Positions 17,613 to 63,972 of a stretch of DNA of 64,000 nt are shown here, piece by piece; position 1 is the stretch's first letter, and the number at the start of each line of letters is the position of its first letter. Made by a program: the position numbers and the translations under genes. The notes under the pieces were generated by a model. That model searched no databases and was not told the DNA's origin. It worked only from the letters and a program-made list of their open reading frames with translations. Source of the DNA: Ceratodon purpureus (Eukaryota; Streptophyta; Bryopsida; Pseudoditrichales; Ditrichaceae); contig CM026427.1 of assembly GCA_014871385.1 (NCBI GenBank), positions 17,785,731-17,849,730 on the forward strand, written 5' to 3'.

Positions 17613-17811
17613 GTAACCCTAAACCCTAAACCCTAAACCCTAAACCCTAAACCCTAAACCCTAAACCCTAAACCCTAAACCCTTAAACCTAAACCCTAAA
17701 ACCTAAACCCTAAACCCTAAACCCTAAACCCTAAACCCTAAACCCTAAACCCTAAACCCTAAACCCTAAACCCTAAACCCTAAACCCTAAACCCTAAACC
17801 TAAACCTCAAA
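17613..17811 (-). repeat. interstitial telomeric repeat tract (CCCTAAA)n
   Basis: About 28 heptamers with a few CCTAAA and CCTTAAA variants. The plus strand reads CCCTAAA, opposite to the upstream TTTAGGG minisatellite. This is the longest pure telomeric run here; shorter cassettes recur through the satellite that follows. Confidence 0.97.
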
Positions 17812-37467: not shown

Positions 37468-38082
37468 GCACTCGCGCACCATAGTTGAGTACCAAACAAT
37501 AGAGAAGCCAGCAGTTTGATGTCGAACAAGGCAAGCGCAGAACAGAAGAGGATGGAGGTCCTTGATCGGAGAGAAATGAGCATCGGCAATGCAGATCAGG
37601 GGGGTGGATATAGGTGGAACTGCAAGCAATGAGGAAGTGCATTGATGAGTATTAGGGTCCGCGAGTACAGATATTTTACAAGGGCACATCATGTCGTCAC
37701 AACTCAGGCAATTTACTACAGCGGCATTACTGAGCCCTCACAGAAGATTTTCAATGATAAGTAGTATGTCATGCAAATCTTTAGCCTTAATCACCGAATC
37801 AATGTACAAACGGCCATTACTAATTTAGCCCTAATCGATCTATTACACTAGTTAGGATAACGTGAGACTTTGAGCCCTAGAATGGTTTACCTCCTTGTAG
37901 TGAAATATCCTTAAGTCATTGACGTCTTCTATTTGTGGGTGACCAGGGCGAACCTGGATCTGGGGGGGGCGTACCGGGGGTAGAGTCTGGGAGCTGGGAA
38001 GTAAAGGCAATACATCCCGGCCTGGCATACAGGGTTGGTCTGCGTCGCCATATCCATCCTCAGTATGGCTCCTCAGTCCCAC

Positions 38083-39846: not shown

Positions 39847-40700
39847 CACTATCGAGTCGTTTTACGTGGCCTCAAATCTAATCACGGGTGGAAATACACT
39901 ACGGTTGTACGAATTTGTAGTCACGGCATAGTTTCAAGGCATTGTGAAGGTTTGGACCCAAATTTCCTCCAATTTCTTATAGTTTATGTTAAAATTAATA
40001 TGTAGGCACAGTTTTACATCCCGCATACATTGATGATTGCATGACAAAAAGTTCCTTGGATGCAAAATATGCGTCTTTATGAGTACAAAGTTACAAAGAT
40101 TGTACTGTCACAGATTCAGAATTCACATGTTTGTACTCATTTTGTCAACTTAAAGATTTATTTTTTACATTTAAAAGAGTTGTGTGCAATCTTCTAATCT
40201 TTAACTACCATGCCTTACTATTTGATTATACTAAATACTAGTATATGATTGAAAAAGTTGACAAATGTGGGTTTTTTTTTGGGGGCCCCAAACATGGGTT
40301 TAAAAACAGATTTCTTTAATTTTTTTGGAGAATTCACGAAAAAGACTTGTTGGTAGAGAGGGGCCAAGAATTTGATTTTGATAGAACTGAACTTTTCACT
40401 TTCATTTGGCACATCAAAGATTTATGCCTTGAAATAAGCTCTGGCCTTTCAAGATCCTCTATAGATTCCTTTTTGTACAGGTATGTACAGGTATGTACTT
40501 TTTGTACAAGATGGACCAATCATCACCTCCCGCGTGGCATTTGAATTGGAATCCACCTAACGTGTCAAGTAACCTATGGTGCTACTGGTCGGCGCAAGAA
40601 TATCTCGGGTACCGCATTTTGTACAGTTTGTACAATTTGTACTTAGTTTGTACAACTTATACACAACTGCCAGGAGAGCGACCCTAGCGTATTCTCACCC
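39847..40700 (+). repeat. left long terminal inverted repeat
   Basis: Reverse-complement match to 63150-63972, from CACTATCG to about TATTCTCACCC. By eye identity is about 95% or more, except for a ~31-bp segment after the first 8 bp that is absent from the right copy. It contains at least eight GTAC-centred words (for example at 40470-40510 and 40615-40665). Confidence 0.9.
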
Positions 40701-40853
40701 TCACAGACAAAGAGACCAAGGGGACTGAAATGTCCTATGAAGGAATAACATCTGAATACTGGAAAACGTGTTTTTGAAGAGGTCTGTTGAACACTATACT
40801 TACCGGGAACGGGGATTTACCGAAACGTAGCATCTCATACTTCAGCCAAGTTA

Positions 40854-43800
40854 TCATGTGGCATAATGGTCTCCGTCTTCATCTTCGTAATCACACTCGT
40901 CCAAGAACGCGTCCTCTCCCGCTTCTGCAGCATGTGCGTCCACCACTCGTACACAGTGGGCGTCAACGATCGTGTCTTCGACTTCAGAAGAACCGTCGGC
41001 GCGTTCGTCATCGTCCTCTGTAATTCGTGTGCCTGTTGGTAAGGGAAAGCACTCCCCAGCTCTCTCAAACTCCGGTGTCTCCTTCTCTTTCGTCACCCGC
41101 CGGCTTCTTGGCTCGTGATGAAGAACAGTCTTCCACCCTTCTTGGACCCCGTCATCCATGAAGTACACTTGGGATATATTCTCTGGAAATATGAAGGGGT
41201 TCACCCGTGAGTTCCGCTCTCGGGCATTGAATTTCACGGACCAAAAGCCAAGACGGTCCTTCCGTACAGAGGCCCTGCCTTGGTCGTTCGACTTAATCCA
41301 CTCCCCTTGCATCACCACGCAATTTAATTTACCGTAAGAAATCAACAATATATCTTTGAGTATTCCCACATCGACGGTAGAGTTGTCTGCAGCCACCGAC
41401 GCAAGACCTGAGTCGAATGTCACATGACTATCACGTGACTCGGGGTTGCATCTATAGTGGCCCCCGAAGGCCCACATCGACTGGAAGGAAAGAGCAACAT
41501 GGCTTGGGGTGCAACGCAGCTTCGCCAGCTCTGGACAGACAGGGAAACCTTCGGATTGGAGCATCCGGACATGGCGGTTCAGCCATGCTTTAAAGGAGGT
41601 AAAATTACCAGCCAAGTGCTCAGGGTATGTATAAGGAAGAGGTCCATCACGTCCTCGCCGTTGCCTTGAACGGAATTGCAAACGTTCTGCCTGCCACTGT
41701 AGCTCCTCCTCCTTCCAAGCGCTGCATAGTACGAGTTAGATTCCATGATCACTGGAAACGGAGGAAACTGTTGTATACATTCGTTTCACATACACCACGA
41801 ATATTAAGCAACGTGGATAAAGATTGATGACGAAGAGGAAGGGCCTACCTCAGGAGTTCCGCCGTGTAAATACTGTGCCCTATGACATACTCATGGATCT
41901 GGGACAGCTCCAACGTTGTGAGGCGTCTATGCCGGGGCCGTCCCACTAATAATTCCCCTGCATCACGCATCTCCTCCTCGGGGTCCCACACCCGTCTCCG
42001 CGTGTGTTTGTATAGGGAAAAGTACTCGGTGCAAAATCCGAGACTTTCATCCACCATGTACCCGGTGGCCATGCCGGCCTCAGGCTTCGATTTATCGCGC
42101 ACGTACTTAGTCAAGTGGCCAAGGTATCTCTCCACAAAGTAGCACCATCTAGAATGAACTGGCCCGCATATTTCCAATTCTCTCACAAGATGGATGATCA
42201 AATGAGGCATAATATCAAAGAAGCCTAGGGGGAAATACATCTCTAGCATGCACAGCGTCTCCGCACTATCTGTGTAAAGAGCTGTCAGTTCAGATTTATG
42301 GATTACCTTGGAGCAAATTTTTTGGAAAAGTTTAGAAAGCCGGATTATAGTTTCTCTAACACCCCTGGACAAGGAATGCCGAATGGCTGCAGGAAGAACA
42401 CTCTGAAGTAAAATGTGATGGTCGTGGCTCTTAAGCCCCGACAGTCTCATTTCACCAACATGCTTCAAAAGTGTTGAACTGTATCCAGAGGGGACCTTGG
42501 TGGTTGACACCAAGGCGAGGAAACTCTGTCGTTCTGAGGAAGAGAAAACAAAAGGAGCCTTGGGCTTTATGAAATCTCCGCTGTCCGTTGCAATGAGGTG
42601 GAGATTTCTAAACAAACCCGCCTCTTCCATGTCCCTCCTCAGGGCTGCGGTATCCTTTTCCCCGAAAAGGTGTCTGAGAACGTTGTCGGATATGTTACGC
42701 TTGATGTGCATAACATCGAGCGTATTCCGAATAGGGAGCTCCTGCAAGAGTGCCATTTCATTGTTATCAGAAAAAGAATTACATCCACATGGAAATTGAT
42801 ACAGGCCTATCACCGCACTGAAAAACAATTCGAATGGGCTTGCTGCGATGAACTATACCCAGAGATTCTCATTTACACATGAAACAGCTGCATGTAAGGA
42901 CGGGAATAGCTGAACAGAGTCTACATAACTGCAACCATGGTCAGCATTATGAAATGTACTACATGTACTCTCCGGTAAATTTGACTTATCCAGTCGAGCT
43001 TTATATTTGTGCAGGGCAATTATTCTTTTTGTAGCAGCTGGAGAACTAGTTGAGGCCCTGGCCACACTCCGAAATGCCAAGCAGCCTGACACAGGAGGCA
43101 TGTTTCTCTTGGCTTGTCATGAGGCGAAAGTAACTGCAAAAGCATCTATAGCGGATACAAAGGAATCAGAAACGGAGGGTGAGGACTACTTTGATCTACC
43201 CGGAGATCTGACTCATCACCAAGTTGAGGTGCAAGCAGTGTGCGAGTATTATGGAGAATATCAACGACACATAGCACATGCTTGCACCTCAACTTGAGGC
43301 TGTGGTAGATTAATTCGTGTGACCATCTTCTTTCCAAATTCATTTTTCACGGATTTTTCACTTGCATGTAAAGGCGGGAATGGTTGAACAGAGTCTACAT
43401 AATTGCAACCACGGTCAGCATTTCGGTATGGTGAAAAAAACAAGAGCCGAGACGCTGCGTAAGGAAGTTTTTGGGGGAAGTGTGATCATATGCACTCACC
43501 GCCCAGTAAGGGAGGGAAAATAAAGACGACACCCGTTTGATCCCAAACTCACGGGCCGGATCTTCAGACTTCGGTGTTCCTCCTCTCAGTATGAACGCCT
43601 CCCGCAATCTTCCCCATCTTAGAATGTCATCAACATGTATGGGCTCAGGTGGGTTGCGTAGCTCTACCTCGCCATTAAATGCCACCGTGTTTGTGCGCCA
43701 AGGGTGTCCTGGTGGCAACCACCTTCTGTATTGACAGTCGTATACATTTTTCTGCAATGCAACAGAACAACGTGATACAGTATTCTTGCCGCAAACAGGG

Positions 43801-45487
43801 CACCCCCTGTATCCTTTTGTGACACATCCCGTGACTACACCGTATGCCGGGAAGTCGTGGGATGTCCACATGAGGATGCCCTTCATCTGGAAGCTCGGGG
43901 ATCCATTGTAAACGGCAGCATCGCTGGTTCGCACTCCCTCGCTCCAAAGCAATTGCAATTCGTCTACAAGGGGTTGAAGGTATGTGTCGAAGCAATCACC
44001 TGTCACAGAACGTTTACCAGGGATGATTAAACTCAGCATTATGAAATGTTTTTTGGTTGCTAACCACGGCGGAAGATTGTAATTCATGATCATCACTGGC
44101 CATGTGCTATGGGTGGATCGTTTAATTGAGAACGGGTTCACCCCATCCGTGGCCAGTCCCAAGCACAGATTTCGGTCTTCTTTTGCAAATTCGTTCCACC
44201 ACCGCCAATTGATGTACTTCCACTGGTGTGAGTCAAACGCCCCTCGCATAGCATCGTCTGTGCTCGCTAGTCTCGCGTGTGCTGTCATGAAGTGTGCCTG
44301 TACTGGGGTACTAAACATACGTTGGAGTCTCGGTATCAAGGGAAAGTGCCTGAGCACTTTGTTCGGAACCCGGGACTTACCGACCCTCCTGAATCTCTCC
44401 GCCCCGCACTAGGAACACCTGTCCAACAAAGAATCCACCGGACCTCGGAAAAGCATGCACGCTTGAGGGCTTGGACACACGTGAATTGTGTCATAGGCCA
44501 GACCGAGGTGCTTCAGCATTTTGGATGCCGAGTACTCTGATTGTAGAAGGCAGTTGATTTCCGGGAGGATGCTCTTCGCAAGTAGTTGGAAAATCTCGTT
44601 CACCAGAAGGTTAGAGGCCCCATGAGTCCTTAAACAGTTCAGGAGCAACAAGGTTGAACTCAACTGTGTCAACTTTGCTCCTGCATACAACGGGGTTCTC
44701 GCGCTTTCTTCAAGAAGCTCTTGCTCGACTGTTAGGGCTGCCTCCATAGCCGGTACATCGTCGTCTCCTTCATCGTCACTGACGTTACCGACTCCGTGAC
44801 CATCCATTGCTCCTGATGTGGGATGTTCCACATCATCGGTTCGGCCATCTCTTCTGGTCCCCGCCTGAGGGCGTTCACCTTCATTCTCCTGCGCTGGTGA
44901 TCCGGGCGCAGTCGGGTCCTCTTCATGTCCCTCGCCCTGTACTGCATCTACGAACTCCGGATCTGGCATGAGACGAATTGAGCCTGCAATTCCGTCATAC
45001 ACGTGAAACGCGTGTTCCACGAGCACCGGCATATCCATGTCCTCGTCGAGTGTTCCTTGATATAGAAGTCCAGATGCTCCCGTGCCAAAGTTCTGGCGGA
45101 TGTTGGAGTCCCACTCATTATCGGAATCGTCTTCTACACATCCCTGCTAAAGCAATTCAGAGTTACGTGACAGGGTATTCCCCGTGTCCAGCTAAAAACA
45201 TAGCGTCCGCGAACCCTACTTTCGCATGGAAATTCAGGAGAGTGTTGTGGTGTAGGGGAACATACCTTTGTTGACCCACGGTGGTATGGGTGCCTCCCAT
45301 ACTTGGCAAGGTGCATGCGCACTGCAGTGAAGCTCCTCTTCGACCGGATTTGACCTAAGCAGATGTTGCATGGACAGGTTATCTGGGTTTCGCCGCCTCT
45401 TCTCGCAACTGCCTCCTCACGCGCAGCAAGCTTCCTGTCCCTTGCGTCAACTCTTGCAGGGCTAGCGACGCTCTCTCGTGGCTCCAT
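40854..45487 (-). pseudogene. CACTA transposase tnp2 (tnp2 + DUF4218 + DUF4216), one in-frame amber
   Basis: Four minus-strand exons in consistent phase, 45487-45266, 45143-43500, 42741-41849 and 41721-40854, give about 1208 codons. Exon 1 has a CxxC finger (CPCNICLGQIRSKRSF...HLAKYGRH). Exon 2 holds the tnp2 core: KVLRHFPLIPRLQRMF, LGLATDGVNPFSIKRSTHS, TWPVMIMNYNLPPWLATKK, YLQPLVDELQLLWSEGV, SHDFPAYGVVTGCVTKGYRG and CPVCG. Exon 3 has LDVMHIKRNISDNVL and the DUF4218 region (ALYTDSAETLCMLEMYFPLG; HSRWCYFVERYLGHLTKYV). Exon 4 has DUF4216 (DILLISYGKLNCVVMQGEW; QVYFMDDG) and an acidic tail. Codon 319 is TAG (44409-44411) within the otherwise conserved DRCS-CGAERF stretch. Everything else is open, so loss of function is recent or the stop is read through. 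It cuts and inserts CACTA elements. Confidence 0.88.
42755..43485 (-). other. large tnp2 intron with internal repeats and a hairpin
   Basis: The intron between tnp2 exons 2 and 3 (43499-42742) contains a direct repeat and a long hairpin. The word AACAGAGTCTACATAA plus flanks occurs near 42912 and again near 43388. The hairpin arms are 43220-43242 and 43274-43296. Confidence 0.8.
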
Positions 45488-45876
45488 CCAGTACAGGTAG
45501 TACCGAGTAGGGTTTAATCCCCGAACACAGACAGCGACCCCACTGTGTTTATAACTTCTCGAAAACCCTTACAATCTGCAGCGAACGCATTAGCAACGGG
45601 ATCTCTCCTACCACTACTTCGGCGAACATACAATTACTCCTATGAATAGGGCGGAGCAGAAGATAAAACTAAAAGAGACATTTAACGACGGGCACAATGT
45701 GGGTTCAAACCTAAGCCCGCTTCAAAACAACATAGCCTACTCCGGTAAATTGTCATTTGAGCCCGGGATATGGAGGTATGTCACAGGGAATTTTCAAATT
45801 CATTCATAATGATCGCAGCGTACAAACCCATTTCCCAAATATGGATATAGAAGAGATATCTCTAGAACTGCTCTGT

Positions 45877-46554
45877 CTACGTGCACCTATTCTGCCGTAT
45901 ATACTCCTCCGCTTTGTGGATAGTGGAAAAACTTTTATGCAGAGCTCCCCTCACTCCTACAACCTGCCTAGCACATTCGTCCCACGTCGTGTAAATTCCA
46001 GGATTGATGCCTCTGGCGACCGCATAGAACTTCACACCTGCTATGTCCACCGTGTGATTACGCAGCAAGGGCGACTTCCTAGCCAAATTCCGAGTCTTCG
46101 TTATCTGCCGCATTCCACTTACTGGCCCGGAAATATGAGCAATCAAGTCTGGACAATTTTGATCCATAGAATTGGCACCTGGGCCTTCACATTGAGGCTG
46201 AGTAGGAACGGGCAATCCGTCCGCCCGCTCATCCCGACGTACAGCAGGCACAATGTCATTTCTACGGAACTGGTCGAGGACTATGAAGAAAAGGGGAACG
46301 AGCAATACATGATCTGCCAGTGCAAGGGGACTCACTGCCCTAACTAAATACGACATCAGTGCAGCACGAAGAAAGACTAGTACGAGACATCGAAACTCCA
46401 TGTGACACTCTAGGATGCTAGAATTGAGACGGGGTGAGGACAAGGTTCGGACAGTGCCCCGCGATGTTCGCGTGTGGAGTCCGCGGACGAGTGTCGTAGA
46501 TCGGTACTTTGAAACTTTGTCCCGTACTTCCATTACAGCCGGGCATCCATCCAA
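45877..46554 (-). CDS. RNase H1 N-terminal (viroplasmin-like) domain protein
   Basis: The last part, starting after a CATAGCAG acceptor near 46043, reads VKFYAVARGINPGIYTTWDE then CARQVVGVRGALHKSFSTIH and KAEEYIRQNR. This is the small nucleic-acid-hybrid-binding fold found at the N-terminus of eukaryotic RNase H1 (PF01693-type; conserved YAV.xG..PGIY.tW.EC..qV.g..ga..K.F.t...Ae.yi). No RNase H catalytic domain follows; a stop comes 2-3 residues after the domain. The upstream part of the frame is unrecognised and may contain introns. It lies 390 bp upstream of tnp2 on the same strand, so it may be a transposon accessory gene. Confidence 0.6.
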   Translation of the reverse strand: MDGCPAVMEVRDKVSKYRSTTLVRGLHTRTSRGTVRTLSSPRLNSSILECHMEFRCLVLVFLRAALMSYLVRAVSPLALADHVLLVPLFFIVLDQFRRNDIVPAVRRDERADGLPVPTQPQCEGPGANSMDQNCPDLIAHISGPVSGMRQITKTRNLARKSPLLRNHTVDIAGVKFYAVARGINPGIYTTWDECARQVVGVRGALHKSFSTIHKAEEYIRQNRCT

Positions 46555-46619
46555 CCAAACAGATTTACAATCGTTTGAATTTGCCTCGCAGAATCTCTTC
46601 TAACTAAGGATGTAATATT

Positions 46620-47020
46620 CGGCCAATTTATATTTTCATCTAAAATTACTTATATAACCATACTATTATGAACACATTTTTTGGATTATCACAATAATTA
46701 TAGTCACTTAACTATAGTTCACCAACATGAACTTGAATTTTTGAAAGTTGTTGAATTTTTGAATTGTGGTTGAATAACATAACTTTGAAATTTCAAATTT
46801 CAATCATACTCCGCGCTTTATCAAATCGAATCTTTGAAATATTATGACTAATCATTACCATGAATGGAATTATCGAATACAATAATACGGTATATATTAC
46901 ATCAAGTGAATATTGTTGTCCATACATTAATGTATTCTTGGAGTGATGGGATTTGTTAATAGGCCAATTGTTCTCAATTGCTCTTGAAAACGAAGTGCTT
47001 ATTCATGGTTGCCTTATCGA
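46620..47020. other. AT-rich non-coding; left edge of AT-rich block
   Basis: Base composition changes sharply near 46.62 kb from balanced to strongly AT-rich, and stays so to about 57.4 kb. No gene seen here. Confidence 0.6.
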
Positions 47021-47027
47021 CGTGCAG

Positions 47028-47645
47028 AACTATATTTGGGAATCCGGAGCTCACGGGACAAATCCCACTCGAACTTGGGAACTTGACCCAGTTAGTCATT
47101 CTGTAAGTTTCTGTAGAGTTTTTTCTGTAAGGTGGTTGTAGTTCTTCAGCATTCTGCAGGGAGTCAGGAGAAATAATATTGAGCCAACTCAGTTGCAGGT
47201 CAATTACCATTTTTTGACTTTCTGAATTGCCTCCTTTTACAGGGATTTACATGACAACGGTTTCAACGGAAGTATACCCGACTCCTGCCGTGACCTCAAA
47301 CAACTTCAGTTTTTGTAAGTTTGATTTTTTATCAATCTTCTCCAGGCCAATCTGAAATATTGATAGAACATGGAACTTGATTTGCACCGACATTACACTA
47401 TCAGAATTCAAATCATCAGTGTCAATGAAAGTGCTGAACTTCTTCTTTTAGCATGATAATGATTCATTAGATTAATGATTTGAGCATATAAATAGCATAT
47501 ATCTAACGTTTCAAATTGTATCCTGGTAAACCAGTGACTTGAGCGGAAACCAGATTGTTGGTCAAGTTCCTCGTTGGCTGGGTAATTTAAAGCTGCTTCA
47601 ACGGCTAGACCTGTCAAACAATCACTTCAATGGTCCTCTTCCAGT
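47028..47645 (+). pseudogene. leucine-rich-repeat receptor-like gene, three LRR exons
   Basis: Exons 47028-47102, 47243-47314 and 47535-~47645 each encode LRR units with phase-2 introns, the one-repeat-per-exon layout of many plant LRR receptor kinases. They read IFGNPELTGQIPLELGNLTQ, DLHDNGFNGSIPDSCRDLKQ, DLSGNQIVGQVPRWLGNLK and LDLSNNHFNGPLP. No signal peptide, transmembrane or kinase exon was found nearby. I infer a captured or decayed fragment. Confidence 0.75.
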
Positions 47646-48007
47646 TTCATCGCGAGACAAGACGATTGGTTTGAACAACCTGAGCAACCTTCTTCAAATG
47701 TATGCTGAATCAACCTTCCTCATGCTCCATCTCTTCGGAATTCGATCCTTACCAGAGTCTTGATGATAATCAGACCAACTAGTATAGAAGACCTTGCAAT
47801 CATGAAATCTGAAGAGGGGTCCATGTACTTGATGTTCGAGTTGTGAAATGACTAGTTGGATTCGATTATAATGCAATTTTTAGATTGACTTCTAACTCGA
47901 TAGAGCTGTGAAGATCAATAGGAAGGTAATGGCCTTTAAGGGGAAAGGAATTCATGCCATCTCAACTTATTATCTATGGTGCATTTGTTTTAAATTGTGT
48001 TGTTCAG

Positions 48008-48078
48008 GCTCCTGTAGCTGCGACTCCTGCAGCACCCGCTCCAAACCCTGCTCCAGCAACACCTGCTGCTCCGGCCCC
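48008..48078 (+). pseudogene. Ala/Pro-rich isolated exon
   Basis: A 71-nt segment between GTTCAG and CC|GTAAGT reads APVAATPAAPAPNPAPATPA, the composition of cell-wall/AGP-type or linker sequence. It is more GC-rich than its surroundings and may continue the LRR fragment (extracellular juxtamembrane linker) or come from another gene. Confidence 0.45.
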
Positions 48079-48307
48079 GTAAGTAACTAGCATGGGACTT
48101 CGATCAGCACCTAGATTAGATTCACGATCAACCGTGCAGCGTGTCTATGATTTGGTTACGGCATGGACAGTTGCCGGCATTTATATAGCTGCCTATGCTT
48201 GTGAAAGTTGTGTTGCATAGTGCAATGAATTGTATGAGCGGACAGTGTGTTGAATATCATTGCATTTGTAAGTTTTGTTTTGGAGTTGTTAACCACTATT
48301 TCATTTA

Positions 48308-48349
48308 TGTAAATGTAAATGTGAATGTAAATGTGAATGTGAATGTAGT
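48308..48349 (+). repeat. (AATGTR)n hexamer repeat
   Basis: About seven copies of AAATGT/GAATGT, just upstream of the hairpin repeats. Confidence 0.85.
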
Positions 48350-48415
48350 GAGTTCTTTAGTACAATGTAAATGTAATTTTTGTTTTATTATAAACATTGT
48401 AATTTATCAAAATCC

Positions 48416-48764
48416 AGAGGGGACTCGGTTGGTGGTTTATCTTCCTAAAGTTGATAAGCTGGATTCCTGATGTCCTCTAAATAATTTAAATAATTATTTT
48501 AATTTTATAGAACTCGCATGGTGGATTGTTTTCCCGAAAGGGTTAACTCTTCGGATTGCTGACGTTCAATTTAATTCCCTATTTAATAAAATCTAAAATA
48601 ATATGAAGAACTCAGTTGGTGGCTTATTTTCCCGAAAGGTTAATAAGTTGGATTCCTGATGTTCTTCTTTAAATCATGAAAAATATTAATTTAAATTTTT
48701 TTGAGAACTTGTTTGGTGGATTATCTTCTCGAAAGGGTTGATTTTCCGGATTTCTGATGTTCTC
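48416..48764 (+). ncRNA. four tandem copies of a covarying hairpin element
   Basis: Copies at 48416-48478, 48508-48569, 48605-48667 and 48703-48764 (period about 95 bp) share TGGTGG, a hairpin and CTGATGTTC-like 3' ends. The inner hairpin is stem-TT-CCC-GAAA-GGG-TT-stem with a GNRA-type loop. Its stem changes in a compensated way: ATC/GAT (copies 1 and 4), GTT/AAC (copy 2), ATT/AAT (copy 3). The outer stem does too: GAAGAAC/GTTCTTC (copy 3), GAGAAC/GTTCTC (copy 4), GAAC/GTTC (copy 2), GAGG..AC/GTCCTC (copy 1). Spacers between copies are unrelated AT-rich sequence. It ends about 110 bp before the dioxygenase start codon, so it may be a 5' leader structure, a small RNA array or a cruciform-forming repeat. 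Confidence 0.55.
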
Positions 48765-48872
48765 TTTAATATAAAAATCTAATAAAAATTTAACTAAATG
48801 TATATAGTAGATGTTTCCTTTTTTTAATATGATTTTTTATTTTCATGAAATTTTAAATTTGTTTGATACAGG

Positions 48873-50363
48873 ATGGCAGACCAAGAAAGAGAAAATAGAA
48901 GACCAACTAAACGACCATCAAAACGGCCTCGGGAGAATGTTACCTTACCAAGTGGTCAAGATTTCACATTGGAGGAAGATGAAGATTTCTTCTGTTCCGC
49001 ATGTTCGAAAACAGTGGCTCGCCAAGGACTTGAAGAACACTTCAAGGGGAGAATTCATAAGAACATGGAGAAGTTGGAGCTATTCTACCATTTTCTATTG
49101 AAGCAGGGTCTCAGTTGGATGGAAGGGAGAAAGAGTTTCAGATGTGACAAGGAGTGTTGTCAAAGGGGGAATTTACCAGCAAATTATGAACAGCTTGAGC
49201 ATCATGTGTTCAAAAAACACTTGTCTACTGTTCAACCTTTCTATCCTCCTCCATCTCCATTAGGTTACAGGGGTTTTCAGGTACCGAAGATTATTCATGG
49301 CAATCAAGGAGGAAAGCAGACCAAGAAGTTCTGGAAGAACTTTGATTTACCTTCAGCGATTCCAGATTTTAAGAAGCTTACAGGGCCGACCACTATCCTT
49401 TCTAATGGTGGAAATGAATTTCTTCTTCAAATTGTGAATGGAGAATTCAATGAGAGTGATGTTAAGGAGATGACTACCTTGGCATTATACCTTGCGAAAA
49501 AGGGTAATTGTGTGAGGAATGATGATAAGAAAGAAGGGATAAAAGGTGGAACTAAAATGATGTGCTCCGGTTTCCGCCATGGCCAAGGTTATATTGGAAG
49601 GTAAGTTTTATTAAACAAAGACTACTTTTATGTATATTTTTTAACATTTTGTTTTGTCTATCTATAGTTTAAGCCTTTATAATTACTTTTACATAAATCT
49701 ATTTTTTTGTACATATTTTTGTAGGTTTAAGCAGGATGATCCTCTCTGCTACTCTTATGGTGATAAGTTAGCTTTTATGCTTTACCACCATTTGAGGTCC
49801 CTATTTCCTCTAGTCTTGGAGCAGTTGGAGATGATTTGGGCCAAGGAGAATCTACCAGCTGGTGTTGGTAGAGTTGGTGAATCTCCTTTCACAGCTATCA
49901 GTGTTACCAAGGATTATTCCTGTAACCCCCATACAGACGAAGGAGATCAGAATTATGGCTTCTTTATATGGTTGGGAGCCAATGGTAAGTATTCTGTAAT
50001 TCTTCAAACTTTATATTATGTCTTTATTATCTTTTTTTGTTTTTATGTTTTTTAATTTAATTGTAATTGTATTTTTTGAATGTAGGTACTCAAGATGATG
50101 CTGGAAATGAAACGAGGTTTTATTTTCCAGCTCTTGGTTACTATTTTGAGCCTGCTATCGGAGATATTCTTCTTTGCAAAAGCAATGAGATAGTTCATTG
50201 TTCGAAGACTATTGGATCAACAGGACAATTGGGCATTGCGTTGTTTCAGAGTTGTACATTTTTCCAGGGTTACCATCTATTGCAGCAGAAACTCCATGAC
50301 GGTATTAATGACCGTATGACTAAGAGTTGGCTAGATTCTGAGAGATTTTATGGTGCTGCATAG
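48873..50363 (+). CDS. zinc-finger TET/JBP-like Fe(II)/2OG dioxygenase
   Basis: Exons 48873-49600, 49725-49984 and 50086-50363 join in phase to 421 residues without a stop. Residues 1-22 are basic (NLS-like RRPTKRPSKRPR). A C2H2 finger follows: C41, C44, H56, H62 (FFCSACSKTVARQGLEEHFK). A second possible finger uses C91, C96, H111, H116. The C-terminal 180 residues look like a double-stranded beta-helix dioxygenase of the TET/JBP type: PHTDEGD (H312, D314), a FIWLGANG turn, FEPAIGDILLCKSNEIVHCS (H367) and a final GIALFQS strand. TET/JBP enzymes oxidise 5-methylcytosine or thymine in DNA. The Arg that usually binds 2OG before this last strand is Gln376 here. Surroundings are AT-rich and transposon-bounded. 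Known fungal KDZ transposons carry related enzymes; this link and the substrate are inference. Confidence 0.75.
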
Positions 50364-53093
<2,730 letters not shown>

Positions 53094-54101: not shown

Positions 54102-54969
54102 CTCCTGCCATAATCAAACCCATTCTTTGTCAGGGAATACCATCGAAGTACCAAGTCAACAGACTGCACTATATATATCCACACAGACGGATTCTTAACT
54201 CTCATCTTCTCGATCAAATCGACAGAGACACCAAATCTCAGATCAGCTTCGTATGAACAGAGCCAATGTGACATCAACACCAGCTCGGAATTATTCTCAA
54301 GAAAAGGTCCCTTCACAGCCGGAAAAGGACAAATACACTCGACTGATTGAATCACAGAGATCCTTGAGACACTCTGTGTAAACTGCTAACCCGAGACCAT
54401 GGCAATCGCAATGCACCTTCCACTCTTACTCAATCTTAAAATTCAAAGAAAGGCTTTAAATTCAGACCAAACGGAAGCCATCATAATATACAAAGATTAG
54501 CACTTCCACGATTAGAATGGAGCTCAGTGCTACGAACTCCAGTCCAGTCGTCATCACATCTAGTCAAAGAACCAGCTTCAGGTTGCATTCAGACAGAGAG
54601 AGGAAAACACGCTCCAAGAGAGGGAAACTGCAAGATCGAGAATACATATGTAGAGAGACCCCAAATGATTTACCATTGAAAGAAGTTGGAACTAGGAGAG
54701 AATCAACAACACTCCAAGAAAAAAAGATACAGCTTCTTTGTTTTTGTGTATCCCTTACTGTAGGAGGTAGTTTTTTTAATAAATTAGATCAAATTTGCCA
54801 ATTCGTAAGAATGTCTTTTAATCCCTAATTTCCTTGTATTTTGAGAGCTTGAATACTGAAAACTGCGAGTTTCTACCACTATGCCCTCCCGAGGATATGA
54901 AACAAATTTTTAAACTTTTTTTGGAATTTCAACTGTAAGATCTTGCACCTAACCCTTCTTGGAAGAACT

Positions 54970-55465
54970 GATCCAAATTTCAACCGTTGGATGATTTTCA
55001 TTAGTGAGATCGTAGTGTTCAAAGTTTCAGCAGATATTTTTTTGGGCCTTGGCCAAGAGGCATGGTGCAAATGGGCAAAAGGGAGACTTACTGATTATTA
55101 CTTCAAAAAATTTGGTCATATTCTTTTCCATGTAGCTAACTAGGTTAGGTATGCACATGCAAAATTTTAGGGAAAAAAACGCTTTTTAGACCTTCATAAA
55201 AATTATTTTCCAGAAGAAGGTATAAAATTGACAAAATAGGAAAACATGCATTACAAAAACAATTTGTGAGATTAAGAAAAATTGAACGGTGAGTAGGTAC
55301 CTTTATAAATTTTTGATTTTTAGGAAGAACAATTCTTTAAAAATTCAAAAATCTCGAATTTTGACAAATTTTTAAAGGAAAAAATCAAAAATTACTAAAA
55401 ACTGTGAAGCTTGTCTTTGTAAGTTTTGGAGGCTGCCCTTGTAAAATTGGTAAACTTTTTGACTT
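54970..55465 (+). repeat. diverged direct repeat A, copy 1
   Basis: Matches 56743-57235 in the same orientation at roughly 70-80% by eye. Landmarks: 'gggagactt', 'catgcaaaattttag', 'agaagaaggta', 'GGAGGCTGCCCTTGTAAAAT'. Confidence 0.7.
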
Positions 55466-55739
55466 GGGTCACTATGGAACTTGAGTATTGATTTGGTTAT
55501 GAAAATATTTCAATTTTTGATTTTTTAAAAAGACCTAATTTTAGACTGCCCGTTTTCGACTTGAAACCTAAAATTTCTAGATGAAGGTTCTAAAATTGGA
55601 ATTTGGCTTCAAATTTTTTACTGCATAGACCTTACCATAAAGGGAGCATCCAATAAAAAGCTTGAAAAAAAATATTACTTTTAACCTCCCCATATAGGCT
55701 GCCCGAATTCACAAAAACCCATTTTGGGTTTTAAGGATA

Positions 55740-55990
55740 GTTAGGGGTTAAAATCCAAATTATCCATCCTTCTGAACCATCCCAAAAAAAAATATTCTTA
55801 TGTTTTGTGGGTAGAATTTTCAATTTACTTTATTTTTTTATATCATTTTGGTAAATGCACACAAATCCTTTTTTCCCTTTTTTCATTTTAATTCATTTTC
55901 TTTATATCCAGCGCACTTTGTTTATGCAATAACCAACTTGATCAAAGTTAGTTGCTTTTTCAAATAGTGTCTCTGATACTTAGAGGAGGG
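55740..55990 (+). repeat. diverged direct repeat B, copy 1
   Basis: Matches 56365-56600 in the same orientation. Landmarks: 'atccaaattatcca', 'gcaataacca.cttgat', 'ttcaaatagtg'. Confidence 0.65.
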
Positions 55991-56202
55991 AAAAAAATTT
56001 GACGTTCACTAATTTAGTTAAGGATTTTATGGTTTTCATTTTGTGTCCTGTTTTTTTGGCAGATGAGACTACTTTGAAATTTTCAGCCATGATATTTGTG
56101 AATTACATTATCCTGATACGAGCTAGAAAGAAACAATCTAAATAGAGCATGCCTCATTTTTGGTTTGTTTGTTTGTTTGTTCGTTCATCTTTTCTTCTTT
56201 AT

Positions 56203-56203
<1 letters not shown>

Positions 56204-56259
<56 letters not shown>
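56204..56259 (+). repeat. poly-T tract, about 56 T
   Basis: Single-base run; possibly the poly-A tail of a minus-strand retroposed sequence or simple slippage. No retroelement body was recognised beside it. Confidence 0.97.
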
Positions 56260-56364
56260 CCCCAATTCTCTCTTCCATTTTTTTATATTTTTATTTCCTT
56301 ATTGGAGGAGGCAATTCTTTTAATAGAATAGACTACATTTCCCTACTATTTGCGAACTCCTTCA

Positions 56365-56600
56365 TAATCCAAATTATCCACCATTTTGGACCATCCATCA
56401 AGATTTTATTTCATGTTCTATGAGAAAAATATTTAGTTTCTTTTATTTTTTATATGTTTTACTTACATAAGTGAACACATATTATTTCTTTCTTTTGTTG
56501 TTTCATTCATGTTACTTATACTCAACAAACTTTGTGTGTGCAATAACCATCTTGATTAAATTTGGATGTTGCTTCAAATAGTGGCTATGTTACTTGAACG
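56365..56600 (+). repeat. diverged direct repeat B, copy 2
   Basis: Second copy of the B block; see 55740-55990. The order along the sequence is A-B-B-A, all in the same orientation. Confidence 0.65.
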
Positions 56601-56742
56601 GGAAAAAAAAAGGTGTGGCTTCAAAGTAGACACGAAATATAAGTATCAAATGCAACGTTTTCAGAAGTGGGCTGCACCTGATCTTAGTCTACGAAGCACC
56701 AAAAAAAAGGTGGCTTCGACAGGGTATTTCTAGTAGTGATGT

Positions 56743-57235
56743 CGAATTTCAACGGTTTGATCTTTACCTTATGTGAGATTATAGCATTCAAAGTTTACTA
56801 TTTTTATTTATTTTTTCTTTGCGCAAAAGGCATACTCTAAATGGTGCCAAGGGAGACTTGATTACTGTTACCTCGAACATTTTGCTCATATTTTTTTCCA
56901 AGTAGATAACTAAGTTGAGCACCTCCATGCAAAATTTTAGAGTCTCATTACACTTTTTGGCTTTCATGCAAATTATTTTCTAGAAGAAGGTACAGAAACT
57001 ACTATATGGTAAAACTTAAATGATGTGAAATGCTTTAAGTTTTTTAAAAAAGTGAACGGTTAGAAGTGAAGTCCTTGAGTTTTTTAAAGTATTGAATAAT
57101 TTTTTTAAAAAAATTCCTAAATCTCAAATTTTGACAGATTTTGAAAGAAAAATTTGTAAAAATACCAAAAACTTTGAAGGTTGATTTTGTAATTTTTGGA
57201 GGCTGCCCTTGTAAAATTGGTAAACTTTATGTCCA
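56743..57235 (+). repeat. diverged direct repeat A, copy 2
   Basis: Second copy of the A block; see 54970-55465. AT-rich sequence ends shortly after, near 57.4 kb. Confidence 0.7.
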
Positions 57236-57490
57236 AAGTTGAAAATATTAATAAAGCATTAATACAACGAATTTATTGATGAATAATCGCATATATTTAT
57301 TTTAGCCATCATGAATTCTCGAATTAATTTTACTCTCAAATATGTACTCTCTTTTCAATGTCAAAGAAGGAAGATTAGATTTATTCATCTTTTTCTTTCC
57401 AGTATTTTATTGTTATAAATCTATCCCTCAAAATATTAGTTTACCCTCGCTATTTTATCCATCAATTTGTTGCTTTTTTCGTATATTTTA

Positions 57491-58320
57491 TTATCCTTCG
57501 TCTTCAGCAGCTAGTGGCAACCACGACGCTCCCCTTGCAGATCTCCAACTAATATAACTAGGAACAGAATATCCTAGGCTCTCTTCAATGCTCCCTCGTG
57601 TGTGGACGGAGTTGCTCGAATACATTACTTTCTGTCCAGCGTGTCCCGGTGCGACTGGCTGCTGCCCTCCCCGTGTCAACAGTGGGATAGAGTGGCCGAC
57701 TTCCTTACTGCATTGATCGATGCCTCTATGTGTACATTCAAAAGATGTCTCTCCTCGGCGGCGCACTAAAGTATACAGTCCAAGCTCTCGCTGAAGTTGA
57801 ACATGAACGTCGACTCTTAATCTAAATGAAGCCTCTATGCTGGGCGAGTTCAGTGCTCTAATATCTGAGGACCACGACATTGAGGACCCTAAACCTAAAG
57901 CCGCATGCTCTACGACACTTCACACCTCCACAGAACATCGGCACTTAGAAACATAGGTCTTAGTTCCCCTTCAATTAGTACAAATCAGAGTGCGAACAGT
58001 ATGGAGCAGTCACAATCAGTGTCAAGATGTGGTTCATGTTCGATATTTAGCACCTCAGAGGTATCTTCATCACAATATGACTCCGGAGAGTCGTGGCCCC
58101 GGCTTATAGAATCACATCTGCTTTGCACAGAGGTTAATCGTCCGACTGGAGGAGGGAAGATGACGTCGCCAATTAGACAAGGATCGGGAGTCTTTCCTGC
58201 GCGTGCTCTTCAGGCTGGAGACATAGGCCCGGGCAGAGGTCCTTCGATCCATCAGAGTCAGGTACTTCTCACGAATTCCATGAAATCCGCATCATTTTAG
58301 GTACTGTAATTTAGTCAATC
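57491..58320. other. open but unrecognised segment between AT-rich block and TNP1-like gene
   Basis: Both strands stay open here: minus 57880-57491 (129 codons) and plus 57905-58300 (131 codons, Ser-rich, reading SMEQSQSVSRCGSCSIFSTS). The plus frame ends at a CAG|GTACTT donor-like site (58260) and could be a 5' exon of the downstream gene. The phase of any join to 58.5 kb did not work for the acceptors I tried. No domain recognised. Confidence 0.3.
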
Positions 58321-58496
58321 GCAGTACGCACAATGTCATGTGTTCTTCATATGTGCCGGCCATTCGTACTACCCAGTGGAATCGTGAATAATCACATTGA
58401 ATTTTGTAATTGAGTCCTACGGCAGTGTAGACATTTTGTCGACGCTAGCAGTGCAATTTTACATACTCTCTGAGCTAAGCGTCTTTCACGTCATGA

Positions 58497-60906
58497 GTGG
58501 CCGATATACAGTCGGATTATCCTCCATACGACTCTGCCCCCTTCGAAGATGAGTTCGAGGACGATCATCATGATGGAGATGGCTTCGAGCAAGGTTTCGG
58601 ACAGGGGCATGGAAGTGGCGAGGATAACTGCTTCGCCGGCCCGACTGCGTCTGGGCCAAGTGCGTGGGACACGGATGGCCACCACGCGGTCCACACGGGA
58701 CGAAGGGCACAACATGAACATGCGCCATCCCGATTCCATATGCCCGCGTATGAAGGTACGGCCACTCCAGTTCCTAATCGAAGAGTTCCTGTACCTGCTA
58801 ACCAGTCGCACGTCGCGGTGGCCCCCGGTGACTGTAGTGGTACACCCTCGGAGGTGGCGTGGCGCATGTCCGAAGACGACAACAACAAGCGGAGAAAGGT
58901 CAACCGACAATATGTGAAGCCATACCTTACGGAGATGGCCAACGCACATGCTCAGAGGCGGTCACCAGTTGTCCATGTCCCTACCACCACCACAGGTAAG
59001 CCGATTGGATTGAAGAGTACATGGCTTAGACAGGTTTGTTTGATAGCTAGGCAATGCATGGACCAGAGCATTAGGAGCTACAGAGGGAAGAAGGGGACAT
59101 GGGGGAAGGCTGTTGACAAAATCTATGCTGCACTAGATGAAGTTTTCACGTACGATTACCCCTTGTGTTCACAATACCTATCCCAATACTTGAAAGGGGT
59201 TGTCAAGAACGATAGATTAGAGTGGAAAGAATATTTTTTTGCCACAACCGGTGGGCAGCACAAAAAATGTCCAGATGAGGCATTTGGCACATTGCGGAAA
59301 TACTGGGTGAGTGTGGCAGGTAAGGCGGAGAGTGAACAGATGGTTGCACTAAGAGCGCTTGGACCACAGAAGTCGATCAGCCATGGAAGTCAAGGTCCGG
59401 CCTCCACATCCACAACACACAGCCAGGTAATACATGTCTGAAATTGAGTTCGGGAGGAATGCAGATATTTCATTGAATTTCACTTGCAGCCCATTCCTGC
59501 AATTCCAGTATTCCTTGTGTTACAATTACCATTCACAGGTTCCCCTGAATTAGCCATTACTGAAATTCTATGTTCAGAGGTTACCTTTCGCAGGAACTTC
59601 TTCAATTCCATCGGGCGGGTCTGCTTTGGTCGGCTCAACCGCGCATGCTTCTAGCAGCGTGCGAGCTGCCTCGACGCGCGGCTCTGCTCGGGATCCAGTA
59701 CACGATCTGGACGATAATCCAGGCCACATTCAGGTGAGTTTGAATATGGCCCAGCCCCTTCATGTCAAAATTTACACTTCGGAAGTACGTTAACAGTTCG
59801 GAAGGACATCGAATGACCGGGTAGGGGGGTTCAAACATGATGTGTTTTTGCAGGGAGGCATCACACCTGAGTATTCCTGTAGGCCGTCCTCTCGAGTGCG
59901 CTTGGAGCCTGACTCCCTCACATTTCAGGGGGGCGGGTCGACACGCATAACACAGCTCGAGACACGCTTCGATGACCTCGCCTCCCAAGTCACGCAGAAC
60001 ATTGCAATGGTGACGGAAGTGTTGGATACACAACGGGACTTCAAGGACATGCTTCTGCGTCTACTGAACGCAAATTCCAACTCATCCCCAACTCCAGCCA
60101 TTGTCAATGACGCACCTCCGCCGGATACAGAGACGGCTCTCAATGACCCGATTCCGACCCCGACTGCTCGTATGAATACTCCGGTGGCAGCAGCGGGAGG
60201 TCTCGTCGATCCAGCCCCATCATGGATGAGTGCGGAGACGGTGCTCCTCACTCCAAACACGCGAAACAATCTTGGGCCGAGGAGTAGACGCATCGAGGAC
60301 ATGCAAGCCGTCTCCACCGACATCTCAGATCAATCTGTAGCTAATGGCTCCATGGTTGAGAGTGCTACTGCATCCGAGTCGATTGCACAGGAGCCAAGGT
60401 CGAATTCGAAGGGCTTCCTTTCTCCTCGGGCTGTAGTTAACATGTCAACACAGAGGCCACCTCCACCAGTGCTGCATGATCCGCATCACGTTTCTGTTGA
60501 CATTCCCACTAAAACGAGCAGAGGCAGGGGACTTCCGACTGAGCTGGAATCAGTAGACGATGACACCTTTGACAATCCAGCGTTGAAGTTTCCACCTCGT
60601 TCTAGTAGCGAAGCAATTGCGGTGAATAAACTATGCTATTTGTCGCATCCAGACAGTGGCGATAGAGTTGTGGCAGAAGGTAAAACGGGAGGTAGCTGGA
60701 AAGCCAAGGCACAAAAATTCGGCCACCTCTGCGACCCGGGTGAACAGATGGTTCAAATCCATAGGGTAATTGTTCCAAATACACGACTCCTTCATGTTGA
60801 AGTCCGACAACCTTTTCAAACCGTAGACGACGCGGTGGTGAAACCTACAGGCTCCAACGTATTTGTGAAATGGGACACAAGGTTTCTGCACAAGAAAACT
60901 GCCTGA
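58497..60906 (+). CDS. CACTA second gene, TNP1/En-Spm-like protein
   Basis: Three exons join in phase: open from 58497 to 59319, then 59594-59733 and 59854-60906 (TGA). The 5' end is uncertain because no ATG opens this frame; an acceptor (ATACAG) precedes 58512. The acidic, Gly/His-rich N-terminus is followed by a compact domain (STWLRQVCLIARQCMDQSIR; KGTWGKAVDKIYAALDEVFT; DEAFGTLRKYWVSVAG) resembling plant Ptta/En-Spm transposase accessory proteins. Exon 3 has a coiled coil (TRITQLETRFDDLASQVTQN), a Ser/Pro-rich linker, and a C-terminus (YLSHPDSGDRVVAEGKTGGS; VIVPNTRLLHVEVRQPFQTV; NVFVKWDTRFL) resembling the TNP1/En-Spm domain (PF03017-type). Such proteins bind subterminal repeats and help the tnp2 enzyme. 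It points to the right inverted repeat. Confidence 0.6.
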
Positions 60907-63149
60907 CAAACAGACGCCACTTCGACTAGCTACGACGTTGAGTACATGTGAATTAGTTTGAGTTGTTTCGTACATTTCCTTGCAAGTCTGATACTGAGGA
61001 AGATGTCCATTAACTAGATTCGTTTTTAGCCTTTAAGGTATAGACGCACAAGTGAAGCAGTCCAGAACACATGTCTGTGACCGGATATGCGTTGTCAAAA
61101 ATCTGTATGCGCTTTCAATTGTTGAAATATGACTCCATCCGAGAGCATTTATGTAAACGACCATATGGAGAGGCTCCCAATGTAGACATAGTTGCAATTA
61201 CACCACTCATCCACTACACCTCTCAGAATTCAGTGGCGGGAGCCGAACCGGTAGCAAATCCTGGATCGGGAGGAGAAGCCGCTGAGAATGACCATCGCGT
61301 GGGTATCCAAAATCTGCAGATCTGAACCGACGGATATCACGAAACGGACATAAACCACAACACCGCATGGGTATCTAAAATCAAAGGGTATAAATCTCCG
61401 AAACACTCGAACCGGGCATAAACCGATTCATGCACTTCTGTACCGGTCGTCAACAGAGGATATTCCCAAAACGTGGCATCAGGCCGGGTATAGTGAGCAA
61501 CCTTGGTATGACCGGTTCCGATCCATGCATATACCCTGAGCCCGGGTATGTGAGAACATTTCAGATATCAACAGTAAAGCAGTCCACTCAACCGGTGACC
61601 ATCCCCACGCGTTATTAATATTTCACCACACCATTATTACCCCCTTCGACTCTATGTGACAGCTGTTGGCAGTGGGACCAGGTATTTCGATTCAGAAACC
61701 AAGGAATGGGTGCCTGACAGTATACGTGAAGAGCATGGCCAACTTGACCAAGCCGTGAGAAGAGATGACCACGGAGGGAAGACGGTCATATGACTCTGAA
61801 GAGGTCATTTTCCAGGTAACACATTTGGTAATCTTGACACCCCCTCCCACTAGTGCACCCCTCTCACTGGGTTATGTACAAGTGTTTAGTAACTGAATAT
61901 GAGTAACTGCTAACTACTACTTGTAACTTCCTCACCTTCATCTGTTAACCTGTATGGTCGGATAGAAGTCTGTCTAGCTGGAATGACGCAGTCATAACAC
62001 TCGTGAAGAATTAGGGGACAAGAACAATATTTTAAGAAAGGGCACAAAAAATCAGTGATTCTAGCCCCTCTAAAATCCCCAATTGGACATTTTTAAAGGG
62101 GTCTTAAGGCATTCCAAAATTGGGTCACACTTGGTGTATGGTGTGACCCCGGAATGTGGTGCATTCCGGCCCCTTCTAGGGGTAGATAATAGGTTCCACG
62201 ATAAACTCTAAATTGGTCTAAACCACTTCAAAACACCCACAAGCCTCAAAATTTAACTTTTTCTTTTGGAAAGAAATATAAAACGAGCACTATATCCACA
62301 GATTCACATTATAAAAGCACATACAATAGGTACCAAAAATCCTAGAATTGAATAAGAATTGCATAAGATATAACTCCCTAAAGGTTGTAAGAATTTTCAA
62401 AAACATCTCAAATTTGGATGCAAAAATTGATTAGCGGTGAATTAGAAGGCGAGACTTATTCTAATGGATTTATAATTAAAAAGGCACAAGATGATTCTCA
62501 AGGAAAATTACTTGAAATTTGACAAAATTTGATAAATTTTTGTGCATTTTCAAAGGAGGAATAACACCATTGTTTCCCCTTGAATGGATGGTGTGTCCAA
62601 AAACTCTAAATGCATAGCATTCATGTTCCATCTACCTACAGGAGTCGCCTTGACACTTATACAACCTCCTTATGCATAAATATTTGAACATATTATCTGG
62701 CTGATACTTCTCCTTGAATTTTGTTATTTCACAAAAAAAACTAACAGCTTCTCCACTTGTGATGAGTGTTTTGACGTATCAACGGCATATGTCTGGTGCC
62801 AGTTCTAGCACAGGAATCACTTACTGCCGCCAACACCATGATTGCACTCCACCGATGAACCTTCCACCAACGGTAACCAACGCCCCAACAAAGACACGGT
62901 CTCTTCCGCTAAAGTATTTTGGGTTGCTTCCCCCTCAATTCCTTCCTCGCAACTCCTCCTTATTCTTCTTCCTCCTACACCCCACCAGTAGGAAAAAGTC
63001 CAATACCAAAGAAGATAAGGTCAGCCTTCAAAGTTAGGCACCAAGAGCTTGTCCGCCTCACAGTAGAATAACTTCCTAAACATAAAATTTGGTATGGTTT
63101 CCAACGTGCTTGGAGTTGGTGCTTTGCTAGTGGAAAGCCAAGTCTCGAT
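60907..63149. other. non-coding right interior of the element
   Basis: No gene-like frame. Between about 61240 and 61560 the word CCGGGTATA/CCGGGCATAA and its GGTATACCC-like variants recur several times, possibly protein-binding repeats. The 62.0-62.6 kb part is AT-rich. Confidence 0.4.
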
Positions 63150-63972
63150 GGGTGAGAATACGCTAGGGTCGCTCTCCTGGCAGTTGTGTATAAGTTGTAT
63201 AAACTAAGTACAAATTGTACAAACTGTACAAAATGCGGTACCCGAGATATTCTTGCGCCGACCAGTAGCACCATAGGTTACTTGACACGTCAGGTGGATT
63301 CCAATTCAAATGCCACGCGGGAGGTGTTGATTGGTCCATCTTGTACAAAAAGTACAAACCTGTACATACCTGTACAAAAAGGTATCTATAGAGGATCTTG
63401 AAGGGCCAGAGCTTATTTCAAGGCATAAATCTTTGATGTGCCAAATGAAAGTGAAAAGTTCAGTTCTATCAAAATCAAATTCTTGGCCCCTCTCTACCAA
63501 CAAGTGCTTTTACTGAATTCTCCAAAAAAATTAAAGAAATCTGTTTTTAAACCCATGTTTGGGGCCCCCAAAAAAAAACCCACATTTGTCAACTTTTTCA
63601 ATCATATACTAGTATTTAGTATAATCAAATAGTAAGGCATGGTAGTTAAAGATTAGAAGATTGCACACAACTCTTTTAAATGTAAAAAATAAATCTTTAA
63701 GTTGACAAAATGAGTACAAACATGTGAATTCTGAATCTGTGACAGTACAATCTTTGTAACTTTGTACTCATAAAGATGCATATTTTGCATCCAAGGAACT
63801 TTTTGTCATGCAATCATCAATGTATGCGGGATGTAAAACTGTGCCTACTTATTAATTTTAACATAAACTACAAGAAATTGGAGGAAATTTGGGTCCAAAC
63901 CTTCACAGTGCCTTGAAACTATGCCGTGACTACAAATTCGTACAACCGTAGTGTATTTTCACCCCGATAGTG
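63150..63972 (-). repeat. right long terminal inverted repeat
   Basis: Reverse complement of 39847-40700, ending in CGATAGTG (CACTATCG read inward). It has the same GTAC-word clusters at 63185-63235 and 63345-63385. It is about 31 bp shorter because of the gap near the terminus. Confidence 0.9.

Follow-up and report, generated by a model that had tools for sequence, protein, structure and literature searches.

A 64-kb window of the genome of the moss Ceratodon purpureus (C7:17785731-17849730; "the window" denotes this whole stretch) in all likelihood contains a genuine CACTA (En/Spm) transposable element of 26.6 kb, whose cargo includes a TET/JBP-like dioxygenase gene that appears to come from another large mobile element. 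The complete element occupies positions 35256..61855 of the window (26,600 bp, no strand assigned), its bounds being set by 14-bp terminal inverted repeats (TIRs), by a CAC target-site duplication (TSD) on either side and by the limits of homology to a second copy on contig C10. A preliminary description of this DNA had proposed a giant CACTA element with a tnp2 gene and a TNP1-like gene at opposite ends and a dioxygenase between them, and this layout is supported by the evidence laid out here. The genome in which relatives were sought comprises 362.49 Mb in 151 contigs.

Ends, genes and copies of the CACTA element

The left TIR, CACTAGTGGGAGGG, lies on the forward strand at 35256..35269 and the same 14 bp recur inverted on the reverse strand at 61842..61855, both ends starting with CACTA, and a reading of the flanks gives CAC at 35253..35255 and again at 61856..61858 (neither assigned to a strand). 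In the alignment of the C10 pieces, homology between the two copies stops at 35256 on the left and at 61854-61855 on the right, and at the limits 35256 and 61855 the window reads CACTAGTGGGAGGGCTGGTC and, inverted, CACTAGTGGGAGGGGGTGTC. The TSDs differ from copy to copy: the window has CAC on both sides, C10 has TGT. Genome-wide, the 14-bp TIR has 52 exact matches compared with 4 for the reversed control, including the window pair, 26,600 bp apart, and the C10 pair, 14,378 bp apart. A hand count from the same 52 matches gives 14 inverted pairs roughly 120 bp apart; the five that were fetched (L066-L070) are near-palindromic, hairpin-like elements sharing the CACTA TIR, and all five carry a perfect 3-bp TSD, as do the window and C10 copies.

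The tnp2 transposase gene extends over 40857..45146 on the reverse strand in several exons or pieces, recognised through Pfam and through comparison with a tnp2 on C1, and comprises DUF4216 (40857-41735), DUF4218 (41848-42852), Transposase_21 (43398-44408) and an N-terminal part (44412-45146). The Transposase_21 match (7.2e-66) is the one expected of a CACTA transposase and is accompanied by DUF4218 (2.6e-34) and by DUF4216 (6.4e-6, below the cut-off). The putative second CACTA gene, TNP1-like, lies at 58497..60906 on the forward strand with open reading frames (ORFs) at 58497-59441 and 59842-60906; it has no Pfam match, and its assignment is drawn from relatives that adjoin relatives of tnp2. 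In a count for which one or two positions per place were taken by hand from the matches listed, 26 of 40 listed TNP1-like loci lie within 30 kb of one of 36 listed loci related to this tnp2 (0.24 expected), and the two genes appear to belong together. Two further ORFs of 271 and 232 amino acids in the element's left-hand portion (36154..37692, reverse strand, from the ORF list) gave no convincing Pfam family.

Among the matches listed in a DNA search with the TNP1-like gene there is, besides the window, one copy of 99% identity, on C10, at 7.8 kb from a copy of the dioxygenase. The window element holds tnp2, the dioxygenase and the TNP1-like gene, the C10 copy the latter two without tnp2; it lacks the part corresponding to window positions 35920-47818, which includes tnp2, shows an overlap of 1-2 bases at the join and is probably an internally deleted derivative, as the alignment suggests. 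Loaded copies are found on two contigs with different TSDs, shared ends and unrelated flanks, which is strong reason to think that CACTA transposition has carried the dioxygenase to a new site on at least one occasion. An older copy on C6 (C6:87610465 to about 87633999) is 87-89% identical to the window in the DNA of tnp2 and 83-91% in that of the TNP1-like gene, and no dioxygenase match was found in it among the matches listed in DNA and protein searches. At its right end the 14-bp TIR is exact; its left end has 3 mismatches in 20 positions, which is weak alone, as the genome has 50 such matches compared with 19 for the control. The similarity of the C6 copy to the window sets in at 57239, at the end of the cargo block.

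The dioxygenase gene and its product

The dioxygenase gene (48873..50363, forward strand), a TET/JBP-type gene whose family score falls below the cut-off, lies within the complete CACTA ends. Its three exons (48873-49600, 49725-49984 and 50086-50363), joined at GT-AG sites, give an intact frame of 421 amino acids, in agreement with the intact-looking gene of the preliminary description, and the dioxygenase domain is split by an intron. The Fe-binding HxD...H motif of the 2-oxoglutarate (2OG) oxygenase family is present, with HxD at residues 312-314 (H312, D314) and the distal histidine at H367, which align with those of the Chlamydomonas enzyme CMD1 (5-methylcytosine-modifying enzyme 1), and two Cys/His zinc-finger-like stretches were read by eye at the N-terminus. 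In PDB, CMD1 was the sole match to the single sequence (E 0.043) and the best match to a three-row profile (E 3.2e-4), the next two, at 0.1 and 0.37, being methyltransferases; the similarity to CMD1 is limited to about 85 residues. In the HMMER alignment D317 falls on CMD1 Asp350 (CMD1 numbering counted by hand from H345), a residue described as contacting N4 of 5-methylcytosine (5mC) in an enzyme that makes 5gmC (PMC7854593). Judged from its family and these residues, the window enzyme most likely oxidises or hypermodifies 5mC.

A second TET-like type, 26% identical to the first, occurs near a copy of the dioxygenase on C4 (L054, about 6752-8147), and a stretch on C9 (L052) holds only the 3' part of this type. 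Its Pfam matches are the 'Tet-like' family 2OG-FeII_Oxy_6 (5e-4) and Tet_JBP (0.0021), both below the cut-off; CMD1 is again the sole PDB match (E 0.048), and an aspartate stands at the same spacing as D317. No relatives of the dioxygenase were found in viral contigs, phages or NCBIfam, and PHROGs gave no match beyond a best E of 0.029.

The cargo block and the other carrier of the dioxygenase

The dioxygenase is part of a composite cargo block of about 10.3 kb (46927..57231, no strand assigned), whose edges are sharp, the left one being given by a locus on C4 and the right one by a locus on C1 and by the older C6 copy. With a guanine-plus-cytosine (GC) content of 0.347 and an observed/expected CpG ratio of 0.52, compared with GC contents of 0.467 and 0.485 and CpG ratios of 0.84 and 0.86 in the left and right backbone, the block is compositionally foreign to the CACTA element around it. 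It is also a mosaic: 46927-53224 matches the dioxygenase locus of C4 at 97.3% identity, and 54720-57231 that of C1 at 95.9%. No inverted repeats were seen by eye at the cargo junctions, and in the fungal TET transposons, according to PMC12730594, the ends of the transferred block are likewise without signature.

Several pieces can be told apart within the block. Exon-like pieces at 46980..48100 (forward strand), read by eye only, are probably exons of the leucine-rich repeats of a receptor gene. A fragment of an Armadillo-repeat (ARM) host gene lies at 53094..53711 on the reverse strand (Pfam Arm 2.3e-8), confirming the presence of a host gene fragment noted earlier; DNA on C12 is 99% alike to it over positions 44-618, with no dioxygenase nearby among the matches listed. 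Genome comparison shows an AT-rich piece (54720..57231, forward strand) to be common to the window and the dioxygenase locus of C1. A unit of about 935 bp within it (about 54819-55753) occurs in the genome in at least 33 near-full copies of 90-97% identity (best 38 of 2569 candidates).

A window piece of 131 bp within the ARM fragment (53094-53224) forms inverted pairs around other young copies of the dioxygenase, spaced by 13.3 kb each on C2, C5 and C7 and by 11.8-16.4 kb on C4 (near 1.08 Mb), C6, C10 and C13, with a further pair around the C4 copy near 3.38 Mb. The arms continue outward from these pieces at 96-100% identity for 1.5 to 3 kb or more, in some cases with a gap, and on the 3' side of the dioxygenase the arms on C2, C4, C5, C7, C10 and C13 all stop at query base 2479. 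Since the end sequences fetched for the C2, C5 and C7 loci continue to match one another in inverted orientation, the termini of this carrier would lie further out. The pattern identifies the other carrier, at the level of sequence comparison, as a larger element flanked by long inverted arms, of which the window would hold only the right-hand piece, and the cargo as including a stretch of this different, recently mobile, dioxygenase-carrying element.

Dioxygenase copies across the genome

The protein search points to at least 92-93 dioxygenase loci, many of them old, broken or only 30-60% identical; it gave 166 matches (best 150 of 331 candidates), from which 99 positions were used, most second-exon rows being left out by hand, and these collapse into 93 loci when joined over 12 kb and into 92 when joined over 15 kb. 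The 20 closest copies (93-100%; best 39 of 60 candidates scored) are spread over 12 contigs, and 11 of them, the window copy included, have an intact frame and all splice sites, the remaining 9 being broken; one of the intact copies (L034) departs from the HTDEGD motif. Three copies (L036, L037 and L038) differ from one another by 1-4 of 1491 bases. By a simple count method without significance values, the ratio of nonsynonymous to synonymous substitution (dN/dS) is 0.10-0.39 in the 27 pairs listed of the 55 pairs of intact copies.

The dioxygenase is rare beside the CACTA clade of the window. A listed copy is nearby at only 2 of the 36-40 listed tnp2 or TNP1-like loci, and only the C7 and C10 dioxygenase loci (2 of 92) lie within 70 kb of a listed TNP1-like gene of this clade; with these counts and with no enrichment near tnp2, the dioxygenase is ruled out as a standard gene of the clade. 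A tnp2 was found 5-9.5 kb away in two of three fetched 20-kb dioxygenase stretches (C1 and C9, not C4), a proximity that was not taken as a link because the first look gave 1940 tnp2 candidates in 362 Mb, of which the best 150 were scored. No TIR pairs enclosing the dioxygenase were found at the C1, C4 and C9 loci; the best pair on C1 (14287-21022 of the joined stretch) was rejected, as it encloses tnp2 and not the dioxygenase and has mismatched flanks. Upstream of the C9 dioxygenase lies a GC-rich tandem array of about 6.5 kb with units of roughly 245-275 bp (L051).

Weighing of the alternatives

The preliminary description had placed the element at 39847-63972, as a CACTA transposon of 24.1 kb ending in two inverted repeats of about 830 bp with the same start, and there is practically no chance that this delimitation is right. 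The repeats themselves are real: 39886-40700 and 63150-63964 are 815 nt long, 98% complementary and 22,449 nt apart, and CACTATCG stands at 39847 with its complement at 63965-63972, each once in the window. However, each repeat is a complete transposable element in its own right, the first (forward strand) nested within the CACTA element with its own TSD TCAC (39882-39885 and 40701-40704), the second (reverse strand) outside it with the TSD CGAT (63146-63149 and 63965-63968), and the right-hand CACTATCG is a coincidence, consisting of the TSD CGAT and the adjoining AGTG. The genome search with the repeat listed 49 matches (best 40 of 74 candidates scored), among which no other inverted pair within 30 kb was seen. 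Of 30 fetched loci, the two in the window included, 23 are full-length and 7 partial; a perfect 4-bp duplication at the bounds GGGTGAAAATAC...GTATTCTCACCC is present in 21 of the 23 and absent from 2, and at 95% identity or more it is present in 19 of 19, both window copies counted. The repeats are thus common as solo elements, an outcome that had been named beforehand as telling against their role as termini, and because each has its own 4-bp TSD, as in those 21 of 23 copies, they represent two independent insertions of a small solo element. Together with the end of the C10 homology at 35256 and 61855, this rules them out as CACTA TIRs; a composite transposon made of two 815-bp copies is ruled out by their differing outer flanks, TCAC and CGAT. 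The interval was hence off by 4.6 kb on the left and 2.1 kb on the right and its size was wrong; the mismatch of its 3-bp flanks, TTA and CAG, which had been held against the CACTA assignment, was seen again and vanishes at the true ends (CAC/CAC). As a family, the solo elements (L001-L024) share the TIR GGGTGAAAATAC and 4-bp duplications. That the C10 copy is instead a segmental duplication, the dioxygenase block never having moved with the CACTA element, is very improbable: the same block does stand at the same place in both copies, with 97.6% identity in the dioxygenase parts and 99.2% in the right-hand backbone, but the similarity goes no further than the TIRs at either end, the 3-bp TSD differs between the copies and the fetched neighbouring DNA of C10 matches the window in microsatellite only.

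Another question is what the dioxygenase does for its carrier. The undamaged frame and splice sites of the window gene, a dN/dS far lower than 1 among the copies and the TET-carrying EnSpm elements of fungi, for which the same function is proposed (PMC12730594), are what one would expect of a selected working gene of the CACTA lineage that demethylates the element's own DNA and sustains its expression. This is nonetheless an unlikely account, given the scarcity of the gene at the loci of the clade, the early stop in the C10 copy and the lack of a listed dioxygenase match in the older C6 copy, and selection may have acted in the other carrier; in this CACTA element the dioxygenase may be a passenger. 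The suggestion that the dioxygenase occurs only as a separate insertion holds in so far as most copies lie elsewhere, several of them in another type of large element, but the window copy is a captured piece inside the CACTA element. As to the substrate, a target other than 5mC (thymine, methyladenine or RNA) or, as with CMD1, a vitamin-C-derived base as product is rather doubtful, at somewhat better odds than the selected-gene account. In its favour, the sequence is distant from those TET enzymes of the PDB set that have been tested, and the sole credible solved relative makes 5gmC (PMC7854593); the position of D317 on CMD1 Asp350 and the aspartate at the same spacing in the second type favour 5mC, with a CMD1-like product still compatible.

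Several observations weigh against the CACTA element with dioxygenase cargo as read here. A single in-frame stop interrupts the N-terminal part of the window tnp2 (about 44409-44411, compared with the C1 tnp2), the C10 copy lacks tnp2 and its dioxygenase has a stop at codon 4, and both copies may be non-autonomous. The two ends, 900 bp each, contain no word of at least 8 bases with four or more occurrences; diverged repeats would escape this test for subterminal repeats. None of the 93 dioxygenase loci lies within 10 kb of the 150 best-scoring tnp2 genes and 2 lie within 20 kb (0.8 and 1.5 expected). The Pfam Tet_JBP match (E 1.8e-4) scores 21.2 bits against a gathering cut-off of 34.9, and the gene is therefore labelled TET/JBP-like rather than TET/JBP. 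Introns diverge less than synonymous sites (dS) in most listed pairs, e.g., 0.028 vs 0.124 (window/L047; L031-L048), perhaps by patchy exchange between copies, and the window dioxygenase differs from that of C9 at 20 of 1491 bases and from that of C10 at 29. Exchange between dioxygenase copies is likely on this comparison, since the window gene is nearer to C9 than to C10 even though C7 and C10 share the CACTA backbone.

For the CACTA element with captured cargo, the following course can be proposed. The tnp2 transposase, supplied in cis or in trans, would act on the 14-bp CACTAGTGGGAGGG ends in a cut-and-paste reaction leaving a 3-bp duplication, as its family suggests; the cargo of about 10 kb would have been captured during repair, between tnp2 and the TNP1-like gene; and the enzyme, going by its family and residues, would oxidise 5mC. 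Across the gene family in general, it is plausible that carriers benefit from a relief of silencing. More broadly, and only tentatively, at something short of even chances, this plant may harbour a large, recently active, transposon-spread TET/JBP-like family with at least two kinds of carrier and two distant enzyme types, in which 5mC modification (perhaps via vitamin C, as in CMD1) would free the carriers from methylation silencing.

Other features of the window

Left of the CACTA element, positions 17615-35000 form a tandem array in which some 11 units, 1.49-1.64 kb long, are separated by short AACCCTA (plant telomere) tracts and the unit lengths recur in a fixed order; it resembles a satellite of subtelomeric type that contains interstitial telomere repeats. 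A perfect palindrome of 72 bp lies at 15920-15991. An Rfam scan of the 64-kb window gave 0 matches at gathering scores.

Comparison with known systems

Land plants are generally taken to lack TET-type enzymes, and plants to demethylate via DNA glycosylases; work by Iyer and Aravind on how TET/JBP genes are distributed may mention plants. In the freely accessible literature searched, no TET-carrying CACTA element of a land plant is reported and the TET-carrying transposons are fungal only. A moss with at least 92 TET/JBP-like loci, one of them inside a complete CACTA element, makes the idea of plant transposons carrying their own DNA-modifying enzyme directly testable; if true, it would amount to a TET-type counter-silencing system in plants.

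With plant CACTA (En/Spm) elements, the window element shares the CACTA TIRs, the 3-bp TSD, the tnp2/DUF4218/DUF4216 gene and a putative second gene, as well as a probable internally deleted derivative (C10), tiny derivatives of 120 bp and a captured host gene fragment. It differs from them in carrying a TET/JBP-like dioxygenase, in that no subterminal repeat array was found, and in that tnp2 and the TNP1-like gene point apart with about 13 kb between them. Pack-TYPE elements capture gene pieces and likewise have a host gene fragment inside, whereas the window element has in addition retained its transposase genes and holds an intact enzyme gene that stems from a mobile element. With CMD1 the enzyme shares HxD, the distal histidine and the equivalent of Asp350 in what is its sole credible PDB match; unlike CMD1, it is carried by a transposon, has N-terminal zinc-finger-like stretches (by eye), is alike over only about 85 residues and is known here from sequence.

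TET-like enzymes are also described in Naegleria (PMC12344493, with nothing on TET in mosses in the passages concerned), and TET-plus EnSpm and other TET-carrying DNA transposons are known in fungi (Kojima 2025, PMC12730594). As in the fungal TET-plus EnSpm, a CACTA-type element here carries a TET/JBP-like dioxygenase, and the gene passes between unrelated carriers. The host is a land plant, however, and within its CACTA clade the dioxygenase occurs only rarely. The dioxygenase DNA is 97-99% identical across carrier contexts in the moss, whereas PMC12730594 reports only one case above 70% between superfamilies. If the counter-silencing role is true, the fungal parallel (PMC12730594) would represent a convergent strategy.

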